Shown one piece after another: positions 10,903-28,865 of a stretch of DNA of 32,103 bases (the first letter of the stretch is position 1; every line of letters starts with the position of its first letter). A program made the position numbers and the translations under genes. Below the pieces are notes generated by a model. That model was not told the origin of the DNA and did not search any database. It worked only from the letters and a program-made list of their open reading frames with translations. The DNA comes from Myxococcales bacterium (lineage in GTDB: Bacteria; Myxococcota; Myxococcia; Myxococcales; UBA5297). The stretch lies in NCBI GenBank assembly GCA_031262165.1, contig JAISIF010000202.1, forward strand, positions 1 to 32,103. The letters are read 5' to 3'.

Positions 10903-11808
10903 ATGATGAAGAAGCTTTTGATCAGCAGCTTCGCGGTCATGAGCCTGTTGGCTTTTGGCGCCTGCGGTAGCGACGACAAGAAAGAAACAAAACCGAATAC
11001 GGATAAATGCACCAGCAATGCTCAGTGCGACAGCGGTGAGAAGTGCTCTGCTGATGGCGTGTGCGTAGCCGATACGACCACTGGCGGCTGCACCAGCAAT
11101 GCTCAGTGTGCCAGCGATGAGAAGTGCCAGTCTGGCGTGTGTGTGGCGGACACGACCACTGGTGGCTGCACCAGCAATGCTCAGTGCGCCAGCGATGAGA
11201 AGTGCCAGTCTGGCGTGTGCGTGCCGGATACGACCACTGGCGGCTGCACCAGCAATGCTCAGTGCGCCAGCGACGAGATTTGCCAGTCTGGCGTGTGTGT
11301 ATCAGCAGGTGGAGACAATGAAGGAACCTGCGATAAGAATCTGAGCGAATTCGCTGGGAAAGAGATGGAAGGCGAAGGTCTGCTTTATGATTATGGCTGT
11401 GACCCAGAATTGGGCTGTTATATTGAGGTCGATTTCTTTGCTGAAGTAGGTGCCGCTGAGCTGTTTGTGAATATCAATGAAGAGGCCACTGGTCTGTCAG
11501 TGTTCAGCTTTCAGAATATTGCTTTTGAGAGTTTTATTCTCGTTGAAAATGACTATCCATATTGCAATGAAGTTGTCTGCGCGGCCTTCTTTTTTGAAGA
11601 TACTGTCTATGAAGCCTTGTCTGGCAATCTGACGATGACCTCTATCGATCCCACGTTCGCTGGAGAGTTTAGCAATGCTGTTTTCTACGATTGGACCACA
11701 GCTGAATGGGATGATTATGGCTACGTCGCCAATTCGTGTGAAACGCCCCCAATTAGCTTCAGCTTTACCGGTCCTCTTGAGGATGGCTCTTTTGAGGAAG
11801 CTGAATAA
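10903..11808 (+). CDS. Cys-rich repeat lipoprotein 1
   Basis: Predicted outer-surface or periplasmic lipoprotein of 301 residues; function unknown. Order: a lipoprotein signal (MMKKLL... ending LLAFGAC, lipid-bearing Cys21), an acid/Lys linker, four Cys repeats of the type CTSNAQC-x5-C-x4/5-C (starting at Cys36, 63, 89 and 115), then a C-terminal beta-rich domain (about 140-301) ending in CETPPISFSFTGP. That C-terminal domain also occurs twice in the lipoprotein encoded at 25696-27465. The second in-frame ATG (10906) may be the true start: it gives the same 8-base gap from GGAG as in the paralogue at 12253. The gene is richer in A/T than the neighbouring A2M gene. It has its own promoter and terminator, so it is probably a single-gene transcript. 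Confidence 0.85.
   Translation: MMKKLLISSFAVMSLLAFGACGSDDKKETKPNTDKCTSNAQCDSGEKCSADGVCVADTTTGGCTSNAQCASDEKCQSGVCVADTTTGGCTSNAQCASDEKCQSGVCVPDTTTGGCTSNAQCASDEICQSGVCVSAGGDNEGTCDKNLSEFAGKEMEGEGLLYDYGCDPELGCYIEVDFFAEVGAAELFVNINEEATGLSVFSFQNIAFESFILVENDYPYCNEVVCAAFFFEDTVYEALSGNLTMTSIDPTFAGEFSNAVFYDWTTAEWDDYGYVANSCETPPISFSFTGPLEDGSFEEAE
11008..11298 (+). repeat. 78-bp in-gene tandem repeat (CTSNxxC units)
   Basis: Four consecutive units begin at 11008, 11089, 11167 and 11245. The last three are 78-bp (26-codon) units that are nearly identical at the DNA level, with shared third-codon positions, which points to recent expansion by slippage or unequal exchange. A stretch of the first junction (GCCGATACGACCACTGGCGG) is repeated exactly in the neighbouring gene near 12498. 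Confidence 0.85.
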
Positions 11809-12252: not shown

Positions 12253-13878
12253 ATGACGAAGAATTGGATTGTTGCTCTCGCAGCGATGAGCCTGTTGGCT
12301 TTCAATGCTTGCGGCGATGACGAGAAAGATCCCGTTGATCCAAAAGTTGAATGCACCAGCAACAATGACTGCGACGCAAATGAGAAGTGCTCTGCTGACG
12401 GCGTGTGTGTTGCGGACGTCGTTGTTGATCCAGAGTGCACCAGCAATGAAGACTGTGCGACTGGTGAGAAGTGCCAGTCTGGCGTGTGCGTAGCCGATAC
12501 GACCACTGGCGGCTGCACCAGCAATGAAGACTGTGCGACTGGTGAGACGTGTGAAGACGGTGCGTGCGTGCCAGAGACCACTCCAACTTGGACATGCCCT
12601 GAGGAATGGTATGGCGATGACTCATGCGATTGTGGCTGTGGGATTATCGATTCGGATTGCGATGATGCATCTGCCGATAGCTGTGATTATACCGATGCAT
12701 GTCTAGAGCAGTCCATGCTTCCAAAGTCAGATGAGAATTGGCTTTGTGTGGGTGGGGCATGGATCTGTGACGATCTGTTTGGCGAAAGTATGCAGGGCGA
12801 TGGCGCGTGCGATTGTGGCTGTGGCGTTGTCGATTCGGATTGCGATGATGCATCTGCCGATAGCTGTGAGTATTCCGACTTGTGCAGCGCTCTCGGAATG
12901 GAACCGCACCCCACCGAGAACTGGCATTGTGTTGCTCCGGCACTTGAACCTTGCACTGAAGCCGGCGCCGAAAAATATGACTGTATCGAATACGACCTTG
13001 GCGCAGATTATGGTTTGCCAGGATTCTATTTTATCGATGTCTCGATGCAGCTTGTTTGTGACGGTTCGGAATATGTTCCCAATAATAGTAGCATGGTTGA
13101 GTGTTCAAATGGTTGTGACGCGGGGAAATGTATTCTTTTGGATGAACGCGAAGGACAGTCATGCACTAAGGAGACTTTCCAAGAGACCTGTGGTGGCACT
13201 GGAGATGTCGTCCTTTGGTGTGACGTGGAGGATGGTGCGACTGCAGGAGTCGTCGCTGCTTTCAAATGCTCTGAGAGTTCTTCATGTGAAGTAATGGCAG
13301 ATGACAATTATGCTAATTGTTATGCTCCTGCGGATGCTTGCTCTGAAAGTGATAATACAAAACAGGGATGTGGAACTAGCGATTACGAGGGTTACCTGCT
13401 TGAATATGGCTGTTTTGAAATGGTGAGCGGCGAGTATTATTGGGAGCCAATAAACCTTATTGAAGAATGTGAAGGACAATGTGTAGAGGATGCATGTCTG
13501 GAGGTTGCAGAAGGTTGGACATGCTCTGGGGCGTGGTATGGTGATGGTGATTGCGATTGCGGCTGTGGTATTGTCGATATGGATTGTGCAGATGCCTCCA
13601 TTGCATCTTGCAAATATGGTTCGGACTGTGGCGGGTTATCACTTGTCGATCCCTCTGATACTACGCAGTGCATCGAACTTGAAATTCCTGACGGATGGAA
13701 TACTGCTTGTTCGTATCAAAGTGGAACCTCTTGGTATGGTGACGGTTCGTGCGACTGTGGCTGTGGTGCCTTGGACGTCGATTGTGACGACGAGACAGCT
13801 GCCAGTTGTGAGGAAGATTGGTGTGCAGACTTAGGATATACGTCTGCTGTCGCCAGTCAGAACTGGCTTTGCGAATAA
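12253..13878 (+). CDS. Cys-rich repeat lipoprotein 2 with four CDCGCG modules
   Basis: Predicted surface lipoprotein of 541 residues, function unknown. The signal ends LLAFNAC (lipidated Cys20). Three N-terminal CTSNxDC repeats like those of the upstream neighbour cover about residues 34-110. Four modules of the type W-x-C-x-W(Y)GD-x-x-CDCGCG-x2-D-x-DC-x5-SC follow; their CDCGCG cores lie near residues 125, 190, 433 and 494. Between modules 2 and 3 are two copies of another Cys-rich unit (ending in EC-x-GC-x3-C). The first two CDCGCG modules are nearly identical in DNA, so the duplication is recent. Tight CDCGC spacing and conserved Asp suggest disulphide-rich or metal-binding folds; this is inference. 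Start ATG 12253 with GGAG 8 bases upstream. It is monocistronic, with its own promoter and terminator. Confidence 0.87.
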   Translation: MTKNWIVALAAMSLLAFNACGDDEKDPVDPKVECTSNNDCDANEKCSADGVCVADVVVDPECTSNEDCATGEKCQSGVCVADTTTGGCTSNEDCATGETCEDGACVPETTPTWTCPEEWYGDDSCDCGCGIIDSDCDDASADSCDYTDACLEQSMLPKSDENWLCVGGAWICDDLFGESMQGDGACDCGCGVVDSDCDDASADSCEYSDLCSALGMEPHPTENWHCVAPALEPCTEAGAEKYDCIEYDLGADYGLPGFYFIDVSMQLVCDGSEYVPNNSSMVECSNGCDAGKCILLDEREGQSCTKETFQETCGGTGDVVLWCDVEDGATAGVVAAFKCSESSSCEVMADDNYANCYAPADACSESDNTKQGCGTSDYEGYLLEYGCFEMVSGEYYWEPINLIEECEGQCVEDACLEVAEGWTCSGAWYGDGDCDCGCGIVDMDCADASIASCKYGSDCGGLSLVDPSDTTQCIELEIPDGWNTACSYQSGTSWYGDGSCDCGCGALDVDCDDETAASCEEDWCADLGYTSAVASQNWLCE

Positions 13879-13901
13879 GTTTTATTCGTAATAACAAACA
13901 C

Positions 13902-13935
13902 AAAAGTCACCCGGTCAAAAGCTGGGTGGCTTTTT
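13902..13935 (+). terminator. Intrinsic terminator after lipoprotein gene 2
   Basis: AAAGTCACCCGG pairs with CTGGGTGGCTTT (with G-T pairs) around TCAAAAG and ends in TTTTT (13931-13935), 24 bp after the stop codon. A cleaner second copy lies at 14042-14077. Confidence 0.85.
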
Positions 13936-14041
13936 ATGTATAGATAGGAGCTGTTTATTGTGTTCGTGCTCGATGAAAGCGCGGTTCAGTGCTCGAGTCG
14001 TGCAGGATCCTTCTAAAGAAGAGCCAGAGCTCTAAGCTTCC

Positions 14042-14077
14042 AAAAAGCCACCCAGTCAAAAGCTGGGTGGCTTTTTT
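14042..14077 (+). terminator. Second copy of the lipoprotein terminator
   Basis: AAAAAGCCACCCAG (14042-14055) pairs with CTGGGTGGCTTTTT (14063-14076) around TCAAAAG. With A and T runs on the two sides it is symmetric and could act in both directions. Confidence 0.85.
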
Positions 14078-14184
14078 AATGTGATAGAAGTTCTTCATTA
14101 TATTCCTGCTCGATGAAAGAATGGTTCAGTGAACGCCAGGAATAATAAGCAAGAACGGAAGTAAAACTCTTTACAGTAAGGGCG

Positions 14185-14352
14185 TAGGACTTAATCCATC
14201 GCAGATAAGTCCTAAGAACACAGCCTATCCTGGAATGAATGGGACAATTCAGGACATGCTGTCATTTTTGAATATGCCAAACATAGTGAACGGACAGCTC
14301 GTCATCGTCCTTCGCCAGGTCCGGTCGGAACTTGAGGGCACGCCCCTACGCT
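14185..14352. repeat. Gene-free spacer with two repeat fragments
   Basis: TAGGACTTA (14185-14193) and TAAGTCCTA (14206-14214) form a 9-bp inverted repeat. Its right arm plus flank (ATAAGTCCTAAGAA) matches the right end of the dispersed repeat at 25601-25625, so it may be an internally deleted copy. At 14305-14352, TCGTCCTTCGCCAGG ... GCCCCTAC matches the intergenic repeat at 3343-3400. Nothing else is recognisable between 14133 and 14430. Confidence 0.5.
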
Positions 14353-14430
14353 CCCCTTCCACGTTCCAGATTTCCAATGCGGACAGCTGTGCCTTGCCCT
14401 CACGGTGCGCGGTGCTAAGAGCGCGCGCCC

Positions 14431-15846
14431 ATGATCCCACCCAGCACACCACGACGCTCCAGAAACAAGGCCGCTCCCCTCAACCAGCTCGATCCAAGCC
14501 GCCGGATCGACGACCCGATCAATGAGGTCGTCCCTCAGCCAGAGCTGCCCGCCCCTGTGCTTCCGCCCGCGCTCGAAGCGATACGTGCGGCCTTTGACCA
14601 GGAAAAAGACAACCGCCCTGCCCTCTGGCGGACGCTCCCCAACATCGGCTTCGCGCCGCTGCTCTGGAGCGAGGGACAGGCCCGCGCCCAAAAGATGGCC
14701 GCTGCCCTCGTGTCCCTGGGCCTGAAGCCCGGCGACCGCGTGATCCTCACCGCGAGTGGCGATTGGCCGACGGCGCTCATCGCGGCGCTCACCGCGGGCG
14801 GCGAGATCTCCGTTTTCGAGAGCGACCCTTCCGTGCTCCTGCCGATCGCTCGCGCCCTGAACGCGCGCTTCATCCTGTCCGACACGCTGGGCGTCGAGGC
14901 GCTCAAAGCTGCCCTGGGCAAGGCGCGTGGCGCCCCCCGCCTCGCCTCTGACGAATCGCTGCTGTCCCGCGCGCCGACAGAGCCCGACGCGCCGTTTGTC
15001 CAGCCCTCGTCCAAGGCCGCGCTGTTCGTCGCATCCGACTCGACCAAATCGAAGCGCGCCGTGACCGCGTCGTGTTTCTCGCTCGCGCACCAGCCCTTGT
15101 TCGACCTGTGCCAGCGCTTCCTGAAGCTCTTTGCGCTGACGCGCGACGACCACGTGCTCTCGATCCTATCGCCCTCGCAGCCAGCCATGCTGAGCGCTGG
15201 GTTTTTCGCCCCGCTGATGGCTGGCGCCACGCTCCAGCTCGACCCGGGCGCGCCGCTCGACTCGCGCCAGCTCACCGTGTTTCGACCCACGGTCGTCATC
15301 GCCACGCGGGCGCAGTGGCAACAGCTGGGGGAGCGCATCGAAGCCCAGCTCGACGCTGGCTCGACGCGCGGGCGCTGGGCGCGCGACGTTGCGCTGCGGC
15401 GCAACGAGTGGGAGGCGGCGGACAAGCCCATTCCGCCCTCGACCAAGCTCAAGTATCGACTCGGGCAGCGGCTGGCCATCGCGCCGCTCAAGCGCCTCTT
15501 CGGGCTGAGCCGCGTGCGCCTAGCCATCGTGGCCGACGCCGTTCAGGCGCCGCTCGATCCGAGCCTGGCTGCGGCCTTTGCCGCCATCGATCTGCCGCTC
15601 CACGCCCTCGCTGGGAGCCCGGCCAGCTTTGGGCTCGCCTTTGCCAACGTGCCTGCCTCTTCTGAGCGTGGCAGCGCACTGGGCCGACCATTTCCCGGGC
15701 TCCAGGCGCGTCTCGATGATCAGGGCGCGCTCTGGATCAAAGGACCGACGATCGCCCCCGAAGCGCTCGAGCACGGACAGGACGGCTGGATCCGCGCGCT
15801 CGACCAGGCCGAGCTCGACTTCACTGGCTTCGTCCACGCGCGCTGA
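14431..15846 (+). CDS. Degenerate acyl-CoA synthetase-like (ANL) protein
   Basis: A 471-residue protein that resembles the N-terminal domain of long-chain acyl-CoA synthetases. Recognisable parts are the early GLKPGDRVILTASGDWP and the late GSALGRPFPGLQARLDDQGALWIKGP and DGWIRALDQAELD, which match the motif before the family's hinge. Key catalytic parts are missing. The ATP-binding TSGTTGxPKG loop is replaced by ASDSTKSKRAV, the YGxTE motif by AGSPAS, and the protein stops at the hinge, so the C-terminal lid with the catalytic lysine is absent. The frame is intact and codon use is like its neighbours, so it looks like a maintained pseudoenzyme rather than a fresh pseudogene. No clear ribosome binding site precedes ATG 14431; the start is uncertain. 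The adenylation function is probably lost. Confidence 0.7.
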   Translation: MIPPSTPRRSRNKAAPLNQLDPSRRIDDPINEVVPQPELPAPVLPPALEAIRAAFDQEKDNRPALWRTLPNIGFAPLLWSEGQARAQKMAAALVSLGLKPGDRVILTASGDWPTALIAALTAGGEISVFESDPSVLLPIARALNARFILSDTLGVEALKAALGKARGAPRLASDESLLSRAPTEPDAPFVQPSSKAALFVASDSTKSKRAVTASCFSLAHQPLFDLCQRFLKLFALTRDDHVLSILSPSQPAMLSAGFFAPLMAGATLQLDPGAPLDSRQLTVFRPTVVIATRAQWQQLGERIEAQLDAGSTRGRWARDVALRRNEWEAADKPIPPSTKLKYRLGQRLAIAPLKRLFGLSRVRLAIVADAVQAPLDPSLAAAFAAIDLPLHALAGSPASFGLAFANVPASSERGSALGRPFPGLQARLDDQGALWIKGPTIAPEALEHGQDGWIRALDQAELDFTGFVHAR

Positions 15847-15865
15847 GTGACATTCGACGCCAAAG

Positions 15866-15908
15866 ACAAAACAGCCCCGCGATTCGACGATTCGATTCGC
15901 GAGGCTGT
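15866..15908 (-). terminator. Terminator between convergent genes
   Basis: ACAGCCCCGCGA pairs with TCGCGAGGCTGT across 15871-15908, with one C-A mismatch, around a 14-base GATTCG-rich loop. On the minus strand the stem is followed by TTTTG, serving the lipoprotein gene ending at 15975. On the plus strand the T run is poor but the stem lies 25 bp after the ANL gene, so it may act both ways. Confidence 0.75.
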
Positions 15909-15974
15909 CGTCGTTTGATGAGCCCTCACCTCTGCCTTCGGTAGGCCCTCTGGCACGAGTGGGAGAGGGAGCGC

Positions 15975-18002
15975 TCACCACGTCAGGCCATAGACGAAGC
16001 TCGCCTTGGGGTGACGCAGCAGGCGCTCGACGATGACCTCGTGCGGCACCACGCTGCCCTTGACGTAGCGATCGATGAGCGCCTCCAGCGCGGCACGATC
16101 ACCCTGGGCCTTGAGCGATCCAGTCAGCTTCATGAGCTTCTCGGCGGCGGGCGCGAGCTTGTCGAAGTGCACGGTGAACGCGCCCTTGTCCGTGCCGTTG
16201 GCGGCCATGGCCTCAGGCTCGAAGCTGAGCGCGCCCTCGTCCATCAAAAAGCCGAGTTGGATGGCGGCGAGCTGGCTGTAGGTCTTGGGTCTGCCCGTGC
16301 CGTCGAACATGCCGCGCGAGACATGGCCAAACGCCCAGACGATCGAGTCGAGGTAGCTCTCGGCCACCTCCTTTGGCGTGAAGAGCTCTTCGCGCGCCAA
16401 AAAGTCGATGAACCACAGCGCTGCGCTCTGCGCCTTGAGCTCCTCTGCGATCGAGGCCAGAGGCCCGCCGAACACGTCGGTGTCTATCTTTCCATCGACC
16501 TCGTATTCGTGGGACGGCCCGAGGTTGTGCGCAGCCTCGTGCAGGATGGTCGAGATGAGGCCTGGGTTGGGCGAGTCGGTGTAGTGCGCCATGGTTTGCG
16601 CGGTGAGCAGCGATTGAGCGCCCGAACGGCGGTTCTTCAGGCTGACGGGGTCTGTGTAGAGGTTGCTCATGGCCACGGTCCGGCCTCTTCCCTCGTTCGC
16701 GACCGGTCCCCAGTTCGGCAGGCTCTGGCCGATGGTGGCACCGAACGGATCGCGATCGTCGCCCGCGTTGAACACGATGTCGATGAAGTCGGGCAGCTGG
16801 AACGAAACCTGGCGACTGGCGTAGGGCGCGCCGATGAGCTCGGCCAGGTCGTCCTCCATCTTCTGGCGCCGCGGCGTCAGCTTGTCCTGCCAGTCGATGG
16901 ACGCGGGGTTGATGCGCGCGAACGTCAGGTGGATGCCCGCCTTGAGGCTGCACGGCTCCCAATAGGTCTCGTCGGGTCCGACACGGACATACCAGCGGGA
17001 GTTGCGGCCATTCATCGCGGCCCAGGCCTCGTCGGCTGGCTTCCAGTCATTCGTCTCGAAGGCAGTCGCGGCAGCGCGCAGATACGCTCGCAGCGCTGAT
17101 TCGGATTCGATGGCGTCGATCGCGTCGGCAGCAGCGCGCAGATGAGTGGCAACGCTCTTCATCGCATCGGACCACGCCTCTGTGTAGGGCACGGCAGAGA
17201 GCGCTTCGGCACTCTGGCCTCGACGAACAACCACCGTGAAAGGATCGGCGAGTTTGGGATCAGCCTCCATCTGCTTGCAGAAGGCTGCGTCCGCATCCTG
17301 GAGATCGAGCGGATAGACGCCGACCTTGAACGGTTCGCGCGTCGGCAGGGCCCAACAGTTCGGATCGTTTTGTGTCATGGGCGCGAGGCACTTCGGTCCC
17401 CAGTTGCGGCGAAACAGACTCTGACTTTCGGGATCGAGGCTGCTGACCTTGTCCTCGAAGGGCTGCATTCCGGTCTGGACCGCATAGAGGGCATCGATGA
17501 GGTGTGCCGCGGCGAGCATCTGTTGGACAAAGGCCTTTTCGGCATCGGCGAGCGAACTCAGATCGGTGTGAACGAGCGCGGGCTGTCCCTGGTCGAGCTC
17601 ACGAATCACGGCTGAGCGACGCGCGCGCTCCTCGGTGGAGAGGTTTTCGAGAGAGCCAGCCTCGTCCGTGGTCGCGCTGATGCGTTCGAGCGCTTGGGCA
17701 AGCTCTGCGTTCGAGGCACCCTTGCCCAGGTGTCGGCCCGAGGTTGGGTAGAAGAGCAGTTCGACGAGTTCTTCGGGGTTGGGCGTGCCATCGCCGTTCG
17801 TGTCGGCAGTCCAATAGAGCGGCAGGTTGAGGCGGACAGCGGCCCGGTTGAAGTGCCCACACAGCTCTGCCCCTGTCTCTGAGGCGAGATTTTTCGTCCC
17901 CTCGGCAGATGAAGCCGAGACAGCCTTGGTCGATTGGCAGGCAGGCAGGACAGTGAGAGCAATCGGCAGGCAGGCGACGGCAAGGGTTCGGCGAAGGGTC
18001 AT
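15975..18002 (-). CDS. Zinc-metallopeptidase-like lipoprotein (M49-like)
   Basis: A 675-residue predicted lipoprotein: MTLRRTLAV...VLPAC, with lipidated Cys22, then a Ser-rich linker. Residues 40-450 are mostly helical with acidic segments, including DTNGDGTPNPEE (about 75-90), which looks like a calcium-binding loop. The catalytic region is in the C-terminal third: HEAAHNLGPSHEY gives a HExxH site (His488, Glu489, His492), followed by FGGPLASIAEELKAQ with Glu520/521 as a likely third zinc ligand. The EELKAQ element recalls the dipeptidyl-peptidase III (M49) family, but spacing differs and I call it only M49-like. ATG at 18000-18002 is chosen because GGAG lies 7 bases upstream and it begins the lipoprotein signal; a longer in-frame reading upstream crosses a terminator. 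A terminator separates it from the FabH-like gene upstream, so it probably has its own promoter. Confidence 0.75.
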   Translation of the reverse strand: MTLRRTLAVACLPIALTVLPACQSTKAVSASSAEGTKNLASETGAELCGHFNRAAVRLNLPLYWTADTNGDGTPNPEELVELLFYPTSGRHLGKGASNAELAQALERISATTDEAGSLENLSTEERARRSAVIRELDQGQPALVHTDLSSLADAEKAFVQQMLAAAHLIDALYAVQTGMQPFEDKVSSLDPESQSLFRRNWGPKCLAPMTQNDPNCWALPTREPFKVGVYPLDLQDADAAFCKQMEADPKLADPFTVVVRRGQSAEALSAVPYTEAWSDAMKSVATHLRAAADAIDAIESESALRAYLRAAATAFETNDWKPADEAWAAMNGRNSRWYVRVGPDETYWEPCSLKAGIHLTFARINPASIDWQDKLTPRRQKMEDDLAELIGAPYASRQVSFQLPDFIDIVFNAGDDRDPFGATIGQSLPNWGPVANEGRGRTVAMSNLYTDPVSLKNRRSGAQSLLTAQTMAHYTDSPNPGLISTILHEAAHNLGPSHEYEVDGKIDTDVFGGPLASIAEELKAQSAALWFIDFLAREELFTPKEVAESYLDSIVWAFGHVSRGMFDGTGRPKTYSQLAAIQLGFLMDEGALSFEPEAMAANGTDKGAFTVHFDKLAPAAEKLMKLTGSLKAQGDRAALEALIDRYVKGSVVPHEVIVERLLRHPKASFVYGLTW

Positions 18003-25695: not shown

Positions 25696-27465
25696 TTATT
25701 CCTGAACGACAGGACCCGAGAAAGAGAACGACAACGGGACACTGGGCGCACAGAGGTTCGCCGACTGCCATTCTTCCTGGAAGATGCCATCGGTAATCTT
25801 TCCGCCGAACTGTGTGGCAGACAACGTGGTGACCTCGAACATACCATCGATCAACTCAAACTTGCCGGTAAGGAGGGATCCCTCTTCATCTGTCTCGAAG
25901 GGAAAGAGCGTCACACAGACACCGTCGTATTCCCCAGATGGCTCGACGTCGCAGAAAGGCCCAACATTGTCCTCCCAGTCGCTATAGCTGTCACCATAAC
26001 CCAGAGAATGGATTGTCTTGGACAGGGAAGTCGCCGCATTGATTCCAACGAAGAGCATGGCGCCGGTTCCATTCGCACTCTCGAGGTCAGCCATGAAAGC
26101 GAGGGACTTTCCCTCGACATAGGCTTCACCCTGAAGCGTAGCACCATAATAGGAGTTCAGGATGGAGTCGTAATCAGGACAATCGAGGTTGAAATCCTCT
26201 GGAACCTGTCCGCTGAAGCTGAAGCTGATTTCAGGGGTTTCACAGGATTCGAGTGTTTGCAGGACACTGGCGGTCATCTTGGCATTCTTGATCTCGCCGG
26301 CAAAAGTATTATTGCCAACATTCGTTATATCAATCGTGCCTGCAGTGGCCTCATAGATCGCATAAACACCATCTGATTCATAAGGCAGAGCTGTAAAGCA
26401 GAATTCTGCGTCAGGTGTACAACCAAAGCCGGTTGAATTGTTGAACCAAGAATTGCTCTTGGAGAGATCACCGCCCGTCACAGTCGTGAGTCCTTCCGGC
26501 ATATTGGCGCCAATGATGAAGAGCGTTCCCTCGGTTGCGGACCCTATCTCAAAAAAGGCCAGCGCGCCTTGGGGGCTCTTGAAGATATCTCCATTGCCGG
26601 CCGCGCTGCTATCGATGGTCACGGAAGCGCCGATCGTCGCATCATAATCAGGGCAGTCCTGGGTGTCTTCGACGCACAATGAAGAAGCACAGATTTGACC
26701 CTCGCCACAGTTATCGAGAGAACATGGCAGATAGACAATATCGCCACAGCTATCCCTGCCGCTCCAATCAGAGAAAACCCCGTTGAGGCCAAAATCTCCA
26801 CACGCGACGAGCGAAGGATCGACAAAGACGCCACCATTCGGGCTACAGATTTCATCGACAAACTCAGTATTCAAAGCGACCCATTCATTTTCTTCATCGC
26901 AATAAATGAGCGAATCGCCTCCAAAATAATCTATGACGGATTGAGGAATCTCGCAGCCGCAATTAATGATTTGGTTATAGCCACAGCTGTCTTTGACGTT
27001 GAGAACACCACAGGTGTACTCATCGCAAAAGTCGGCAGTATCCAGCTCACATGAACTCTCATTCACGCAGGCATTCGAATTGAGATTACAGGTTTTTCCT
27101 GCGCCGCAATCCATGCCACATTGAATAGTCACGCTGCCACAATCTCCCCCGAGATAGACTGAACTCGAACCACACTTGCCTTGGCAGGCTGCCTCGGTTT
27201 GCTCGGCGCTGGCCGCGCACGTCGGGCCGGTGGACGAGACGCACTTATTGGCCACGCAGTCGTCGCCTTCATTGCAGGTGTTGGCGCACTCGATGGTCTG
27301 CGTCTCATTGCAGGTGTCCTGGACCGTGGTCTGACCACATTGCTTGGCGGCGCAGGCGGCTTCCTTGGCAGCATCCTCAATCTTGCAAGTCGGCTTCTTC
27401 GGCTCATCGTCGCCACAGGCGATCAAAAAAGACGATGCCAACACAGCCAACATAAATCTCTTCAT
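25696..27465 (-). CDS. Cys-rich lipoprotein 3 with two copies of a shared beta domain
   Basis: A 589-residue predicted surface lipoprotein, function unknown. The signal MKRFMLAVLASSFLIAC places the lipid on Cys17. Residues 25-265 are a run of Cys-rich units (CNEGDDCVANKC, CGAGKTCNLNSNAC, CGEGQICASSLC), probably disulphide-bonded. Two copies of one domain follow (about 270-430 and 430-589): each starts CPDYD and ends in a strand of the type ISFSFSG or LSFSFSGPV. The single C-terminal domain of lipoprotein 1 (10903) has the same elements, including TFAGE-x2-NA and SCETP-x-ISFSF. Start ATG at 27463-27465 with GGAGG 8 bases upstream. Its promoter matches those of lipoproteins 1 and 2. It has its own terminator, so it is monocistronic. 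Confidence 0.87.
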   Translation of the reverse strand: MKRFMLAVLASSFLIACGDDEPKKPTCKIEDAAKEAACAAKQCGQTTVQDTCNETQTIECANTCNEGDDCVANKCVSSTGPTCAASAEQTEAACQGKCGSSSVYLGGDCGSVTIQCGMDCGAGKTCNLNSNACVNESSCELDTADFCDEYTCGVLNVKDSCGYNQIINCGCEIPQSVIDYFGGDSLIYCDEENEWVALNTEFVDEICSPNGGVFVDPSLVACGDFGLNGVFSDWSGRDSCGDIVYLPCSLDNCGEGQICASSLCVEDTQDCPDYDATIGASVTIDSSAAGNGDIFKSPQGALAFFEIGSATEGTLFIIGANMPEGLTTVTGGDLSKSNSWFNNSTGFGCTPDAEFCFTALPYESDGVYAIYEATAGTIDITNVGNNTFAGEIKNAKMTASVLQTLESCETPEISFSFSGQVPEDFNLDCPDYDSILNSYYGATLQGEAYVEGKSLAFMADLESANGTGAMLFVGINAATSLSKTIHSLGYGDSYSDWEDNVGPFCDVEPSGEYDGVCVTLFPFETDEEGSLLTGKFELIDGMFEVTTLSATQFGGKITDGIFQEEWQSANLCAPSVPLSFSFSGPVVQE

Positions 27466-27894: not shown

Positions 27895-28865
27895 ATGAAT
27901 CACTATGAAAAAACAGAACGTTTGAAGGATGCGGATTTCAAGCAGCTCATCGGCGTAAAAAGAAAAACCTTTTCCGAAATGGTCAAGGTATTAAACGCCA
28001 AATATCTCAAGAAACACGAAAAGGGGGGACGCAAACCCAAACTTACGCTTGAAGAGCAATTGCTGATGACCTTAAAATATCTGCGGCGATATGCCACACA
28101 AAAGGAACTCGCGTATGAATTTGAGGTTGGGGAAGCAACGATTCACGACACGATTGTTTGGATTGAAAATACACTCGTTAGGTCTGAGAAATTCAAACCG
28201 CCCGGCAAGAAAGAATTGCTTGAGGAGGAAAGTATAGAAATAATCCTTGTTGATGTGACGGAATGTCCGATATAGCCGCATAAAGAAGAAACGCTAAAAG
28301 GGAACTCCCAACAACACCGAAGTCAATCATGCTTTACTCACGAAAAGACATGAGCAAATTTCAAGAGGTGGCTACGTGATAATGTTTTATGATATGAATC
28401 ACTAGAGTCGGCCATCTATGAATACTCAAGATGTTAGTGATGCTTTTTTATACGACTATAGAACGACCTAAAAAACGGCGGCGATGGTATTCAGGGAAAA
28501 AACACACCATAAAAATTCAAGTCGTCATCAACAAACACATGGAAGAAATTATTTGCGTTTCGGAAGATTGTGGAAAAACGCATGATTTCAAGTTGTACAA
28601 AGACACCATTGAAGCGCGTATTCTGGAAAGTATAAAGTTACAAGTGGGCAGTGGGTATCAAGGAATTTCTAAGGTTCACAAAAATAGCGAAACACCGAAA
28701 AAGAAACCAAAAGGCGGCGAACTCACTGAGGAAGAAAAGGCGGGCAACAGACGAATTTCTCGCGAGCGAATCCTGATTGAGAATATCAATGCAAAAATCA
28801 AAGTTTTCAAAATCATGTCGTGTAAATACCGAAACCGTAGAAAACGTCATAACTTAATTATTTAG
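27895..28865 (+). pseudogene. IS5-family transposase split by a miniature element
   Basis: Two reading frames make one transposase: 27895-28272 (126 codons, HTH part, with GGRKPKLTLEEQLLMTLKYL and VDVTECP holding the first catalytic Asp) and 28461-28865 (134 codons, from ERPKKRRRWYSGKKHTIK). Removing the 186-bp element and one TA joins them in frame as CPIERPKKRRRWYSGKK, the usual sequence of the family. The protein would be 260 residues with an HTH_Tnp_4-like and a DDE_Tnp_4-like domain. Other damage: the second catalytic Asp, expected in DSGYQG or DTGYQG, is Gly in VGSGYQG, and the C-terminus is cut short after RRKRHNLII. The Glu of the triad is present (RILIENINAK). Clear terminal repeats of the IS were not found. 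Confidence 0.88.
28273..28458 (+). mobile_element. 186-bp miniature element, copy B
   Basis: Same length as copy A and differing at four positions. Starts TAGCCGCATAAAGAAG and ends TTTTTTATACGACTA, with TA on both sides (28271-28272 and 28459-28460). The host gene needs only one TA to restore its frame, which proves a two-base TA duplication in practice. No open frame of note inside. Confidence 0.9.

Follow-up and report, generated by a model that had tools for sequence, protein, structure and literature searches.

Is a reading frame that stays open over 471 codons, while its product has lost the ATP loop, the YGxTE motif and the C-terminal lid of the acyl-CoA synthetases, the gene of a functional pseudoenzyme or a pseudogene in decay? 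The question is raised by a gene in the draft genome of a Myxococcales bacterium (G000, 96% complete, 214 contigs), located in a stretch of 32,103 nucleotides that is called the window below. The original prediction, made from the letters of the window, was that the frame encodes a catalytically dead acyl-CoA synthetase fold with a possible binding or regulatory role. The features of the gene are given here, with the motif names (A3 to A10) and the A3 consensus (TSGTTGxPKG) of the ANL proteins.

14431..15846, + strand: putative ANL N-domain pseudoenzyme gene, 471 aa, stop codon at 15844-15846 (open reading frame, Pfam, AlphaFold2 and PDB matches)
14431..14550, + strand: low-confidence N-terminal extension, residues 1-40, basic and Ser/Pro-rich (pLDDT below 50 at residues 1-4, 6-21 and 23-39)
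15031..15063, + strand: degenerate ATP loop (A3), residues 201-211, ASDSTKSKRAV (motif alignment; pLDDT below 50 at residues 203-212)
15190..15348, + strand: conserved block with new shared residues, residues 254-306, a candidate binding face (24 of 53 columns specific to the window protein and its orthologue)
15604..15636, + strand: former A5 motif, residues 392-402, ALAGSPASFGL (no Tyr/Trp, no catalytic Glu)
15787..15843, + strand: former A7 region and C-terminus, residues 453-471 (TGD changed to ALD; terminates at the N-domain boundary)

The frame is open throughout, as had been claimed, and its product matches the Pfam AMP-binding profile (PF00501) over residues 79-442 with 57.2 bits, compared with a gathering cut-off of 29.9 (E 1.7e-15). 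The structure prediction that had been proposed as a check gave an AlphaFold2 model with a pLDDT of 81.2 and a pTM of 0.82, the residues below 50 being those listed above. Searches of the PDB with Foldseek and VIA-align returned ANL proteins, the best with a Z of 39.3 over 350 aligned residues and an rmsd of 2.3, and the aligned part stops at the N-domain boundary, as it does in the N-domain entries of FadD13. The ANL N-domain fold is predicted to be retained, with the qualification that 13 of the 15 rows of the AlphaFold2 alignment were other ANL proteins chosen by their intact ATP loop, which biases the model toward this fold (one search for relatives found none, and two others yielded 40 loci, 13 of them taken into the alignment). 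The N-terminal extension reaches beyond the start methionine of the intact relatives.

Concerning the catalytic motifs, the losses read originally from the sequence all stand. In the ungapped register, the ATP loop keeps two of the nine consensus residues. At the position of YGxTE the protein has LAGSPASFG, with neither the aromatic residue nor the catalytic glutamate, the [T/S]GD of A7 is ALD, and the A4 histidine is replaced by glutamine. The last residue falls just before the hinge GRKKE, so that the lid, the hinge and the A10 lysine are all missing. A tblastn search for a remnant of the lid, with eight lids against the window and locus L036 at an E threshold of 10, gave nothing credible: the lowest E value (0.053) belongs to a match remote from the gene, and another match, of 28 residues and E 1.8, overlaps the gene's end. 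As a control, seven of the eight lids (the exception being that of genome G004) match both ligase paralogues of the window genome with E values of at most 1e-23. In view of these motif losses, it appears very unlikely that the protein adenylates, and unlikely that it is a functional long-chain acyl-CoA ligase.

An orthologue is found in the same-genus genome G002 (sheep colon, about 130 contigs). It has 472 residues, is 55% identical to the window protein, terminates at the residue homologous to the window protein's end and carries a similar N-terminal extension. The expectation that orthologues would show the same losses is borne out for the lid, the A4 histidine and the A5 glutamate (VTGPAAAFG, again without the aromatic residue), and A7 reads ALE; it fails for the ATP loop, TEGETATPKG, which is merely degenerate and keeps six of the nine consensus residues, including PKG, with two acidic substitutions. 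The decay of the ATP loop is further advanced in the window than in G002, and the losses of the glutamate, the histidine and the lid are common to both. The codon use is host-like, as predicted: GC3 is 0.82 for the pair, compared with 0.88 for fabH, 0.84 for the peptidase gene and 0.79 for radA, all of them neighbouring genes in the two genomes.

The known distribution of the gene is narrow. Among genome contigs there was one orthologue, in G002's own record, the sheep-colon MAG contig JAFVYB010000086.1 (Myxococcaceae bacterium RGIG5499), whose protein is identical to the G002 orthologue letter for letter; no orthologue was found among viral contigs. A third short form was seen neither in the order (145 genomes, E 1e-20) nor in the class (147 genomes, E 1e-35), in searches that scored up to 11 candidates per genome and that weaker matches would escape. 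The order search gave 80 matches, with loci given for 30. By the listed frame lengths, two of the 78 other matches are shorter than 600 residues (in G136 and G137), and both of these frames run off contig ends and contain the lid. In G001, the third genome of the genus and 89% complete, a search at E 0.001 gave no match, and some members of the genus may therefore do without the gene.

To place the pair, a tree of 35 ligases was built by a quick method with SH-aLRT support and no bootstrap. The window and G002 proteins group together with a support of 100, and the protein C59 of the same-family genome G004 joins them with 99; because the tree program flags the long end branch of G004 and the unusual letter make-up of all three rows, the placement is less certain than these figures. 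The pair has a stem of 2.51 changes per column and tips of 0.38 and 0.60. A set of 20 intact relatives, 19 of them from family f3, whose genomes we judge to be Myxococcaceae (in the NCBI taxonomy a family of the Myxococcales), and one from family f2, served to define the invariant positions of the N-part. Of these 112 positions, the window protein keeps 42, G004 C59 58 and the G002 protein 39, the last count being slightly low since the aligner puts a five-residue gap inside the ATP loop. At the 107 comparable positions, 30 are replaced in both members of the pair and 32 are kept in both. Taken from these sequences, the loss appears to be stepwise, the ligase being intact in the f3 genomes, eroded with its lid in G004, and lidless in the genus.

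The G004 protein (L037:3838-5622, − strand; 595-620 residues, depending on the start chosen) is a full-length eroded ligase, which has lost many invariants (75 of 142 kept overall) and is possibly a pseudoenzyme that still carries the lid. Like the pair with which it groups, it has nine residues never seen in the 20 intact relatives; unlike the pair, it retains the lid (PF23562), YGQAE, TGD and seven of the nine ATP-loop residues, with no lysine in the A10 stretch. The A10 lysine was dropped as a test of such an intermediate, since intact-looking relatives such as L009 also deviate there. In L009 and L012, both from f3 genomes, the A10 stretch reads TPKLSVRR, that is, the usual lysine position is changed while the other motifs are intact.

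The evidence on constraint comes from the single known orthologue, that of G002. In a pairwise codon model over 456 codons, dN is 0.366 and omega = 1 is rejected with a 2dlnL of 219; as dS is saturated, the fitted omega of 0.042 is not a reliable measurement, and the rejection alone is used here. The dN/dS check that had been suggested is thus answered as far as neutrality is concerned, and no value of the ratio can be quoted. For the neighbouring peptidase and radA genes dS is also saturated, with fits at the bound, and for the housekeeping gene fabH it is 1.73 between the same two genomes, itself near saturation. We have also simulated neutral evolution from the window copy, with substitutions only and 300 runs at each of three distances. 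At a distance of 1.73 the copies are 12% identical, with about seven stops each, and at none of the three distances, 0.5 included, were both copies free of stops in any of the 300 runs. Given this result and an orthologue of nearly equal length, the open frame is not due to chance. The sequence has been under purifying selection since the split from the G002 copy, and since the common end most simply predates that split, the constraint acted on a lidless protein. A broken frame or neutral substitution, by which a pseudogene would be recognised, was found in neither copy. A constrained ANL pseudoenzyme is hence well supported, on two sequences, and the original preference for a pseudoenzyme over a pseudogene is upheld.

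It could nevertheless be argued that the copy in the window has begun to decay as a pseudogene, and that the measured constraint is mostly historical. The pair has some three to four times the evolutionary rate of the intact paralogues, the sum of its tips being 0.98 as against 0.32 for G000_C177 and G002_C1 (0.16 each) and 0.24 for C191 and C102 (0.13 and 0.11). The lack of a match in one of the three genomes of the genus, the more decayed ATP loop of the window copy and the small size of its genome (3.0 Mb, compared with 7.6 and 8.7 Mb for same-family genomes) point in the same direction, and a very recent relaxation of selection in the window lineage could go unseen. However, the lid was most simply lost before the split, and yet both frames have remained open at saturated dS, while neutral pairs already acquire stops at the much smaller distance of 0.5. 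In addition, a block of new residues, discussed below, is held identical in the two copies. Ordinary decay is therefore disfavoured, and we regard its early form as unlikely.

The next question is on which parts of the protein the selection acts. The window/G002 pair is identical at 246 of 456 columns, and an intact pair of comparable divergence in this respect, L009/L021, at 226 of 459. In the intact pair the eight motifs are better conserved than the rest (71 of 89 columns identical versus 143 of 335), while in the window/G002 pair the corresponding numbers are 43 of 89 and 188 of 335. The ATP loop alone stands out as badly conserved, with two of 14 columns identical as against 13 of 14 in the intact pair, and the least conserved 15-residue segments (one identical residue of 15) start at residues 198-202, which is the ATP loop. 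Conservation of the A4, A6 and PRVWEK regions is near the average or higher, and the pair has much the same frequency of identities at columns invariant among the intact enzymes as at other columns.

The strongest conservation is found instead in residues 254-306, where the pair agrees at 44 of 53 comparable columns, compared with 187 of 365 elsewhere. The ten best 15-residue segments, with 14 identical residues, start at 260-261, 270-274 and 277-279. In this block, 24 of the 53 columns hold residues unseen in the 20 intact relatives, versus 68 of 365 elsewhere (Fisher p 5e-5). In permutations that score the best segment, the pair-specific count was reached in 27 of 10,000 and the identity count in 1 of 10,000; it is important to note that the block was picked after inspection and that the permutation allows for the choice of the best segment, not for neighbouring residues that co-evolve.

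With the fold and the pocket scaffold predicted to be intact, one could also imagine a neofunctionalised enzyme or carrier, in which the pocket still does some chemistry, or binds the acyl-AMP or acyl-CoA product of another enzyme. Lidless ANL N-domains have been crystallised with acyl-AMP (the PqsA N-domain, 5oe3 and 5oe6, by their entry titles), PKG is retained in the G002 loop, and conservation in the pair is not poor over the former A4, A6 and PRVWEK regions. Yet the catalytic glutamate, the aromatic residue, the A4 histidine and TGD are gone from both copies, and the ATP loop, instead of being the best conserved part, is the worst, which makes this scenario improbable in our judgement. 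That the gene is an artefact, whether from the joining of two fragments or from a chimeric MAG contig, is scarcely credible, for although both genomes are draft assemblies (214 and about 130 contigs), the two give proteins of near-equal length with a common end, the predicted fold shows no break, and the neighbouring peptidase and fabH genes have counterparts in the genus (fabH 91% in G002).

The surroundings of the gene were considered as a clue to its function and dropped, as they are not conserved and give no pointer to a partner or ligand. The gene lies at different loci in the two genomes, next to a peptidase-like gene in the window and to a small membrane-protein gene in G002. In the G001 counterpart of the window neighbourhood a TPR-like gene takes that place, and in its counterpart of the G002 neighbourhood a uvrC-like gene, the pseudoenzyme gene being absent from both (gene names read from the sequence). 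The G002-type neighbourhood of the window genome (C166, 9,000 of 10,217 bases) is also without the gene, and the peptidase neighbourhood of G002 is broken off by a contig end.

Some other elements of the window can be mentioned here. A promoter scan of 13700-16100 found none, with 0.4 expected in shuffles. Two exact copies of AAGCTGGGTGGCTTTTT, none being expected by chance, lie at 13919-13935 and 14060-14076; each ends a GC-rich inverted repeat, judged by eye, and the two resemble tandem terminators upstream of the gene, while a terminator scan did not list them. Three Cys-rich proteins, lipoprotein-like by eye, are encoded at 10903-11808, 12253-13878 and 25696-27465, the first two with repeated units of the kind CTSNAQCASDEKCQSGVCV. 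Two AT-rich frames at 27895-28275 and 28431-28865 look by eye like the halves of an interrupted transposase.

On balance, we think it probable that the gene encodes a non-adenylating ANL pseudoenzyme, descended from a long-chain acyl-CoA ligase of the Myxococcales, that is under selection and works by binding through a remodelled face. The binding role proposed originally fits the pattern of constraint, from which we infer that binding, rather than chemistry, is the most likely function. Residues 254-306 would then be a face that was remodelled on the stem branch and afterwards frozen, most likely docking a protein partner. A candidate for this partner is one of the intact ligase paralogues of the same genome, C177 or C191, which keep the A5, A7 (TGD), hinge and A10 motifs and have the ATP loops TSGTTGKPKG and TSGTVGTPKG, respectively; the pseudoenzyme could be a dead partner subunit that alters the activity or location of the ligase. 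Alternatively, the empty pocket may accommodate a hydrophobic ligand, acyl or other, that is not activated there. None of the tests performed points to a particular partner. The more specific proposal, namely an ANL line in which stepwise catalytic loss was combined with a new fixed interaction face at 254-306, and which serves as a dead subunit to regulate the cell's own intact acyl-CoA ligases, is doubtful and is put forward only tentatively. If the reading as a binding pseudoenzyme is true, the Myxococcales series leads from an active ligase, by way of an eroded one, to a lidless constrained protein, and one can follow in it, residue by residue, how catalysis was lost and a new face acquired.

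Well-known pseudoenzymes exist in the kinases and in other families. For the ANL or acyl-CoA synthetase family, the matches listed from the open-access literature contained no relevant paper on pseudoenzymes, which is not proof of absence. Among characterised models, the NCBIfam family TIGR03089 shows a weak likeness of 20 bits, below its cut-off of 85 bits, and the window protein is not a member by that model. The closest relatives are the long-chain acyl-CoA ligases of the f3 genomes (e.g. L009 and G033; AMP-binding and AMP-binding_C_3), which belong to the same gene lineage by the tree and by best match and have the N-domain family in common with the window protein. They have TSGTTGxPKG, the A5 glutamate, [T/S]GD and the lid (PF23562 in L009), whereas the window protein has none of these. 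In structure, the nearest parallel is the N-domain of FadD13 (FACL13) from M. tuberculosis (3t5b, 3t5c and 5zrn), which consists of the N-domain alone and aligns over 362-366 residues with Z values of 38.5-38.8. However, these entries cover parts of an enzyme that the PDB also contains in a longer form (3r44), while the window protein is lidless in the gene itself and lacks the motifs.
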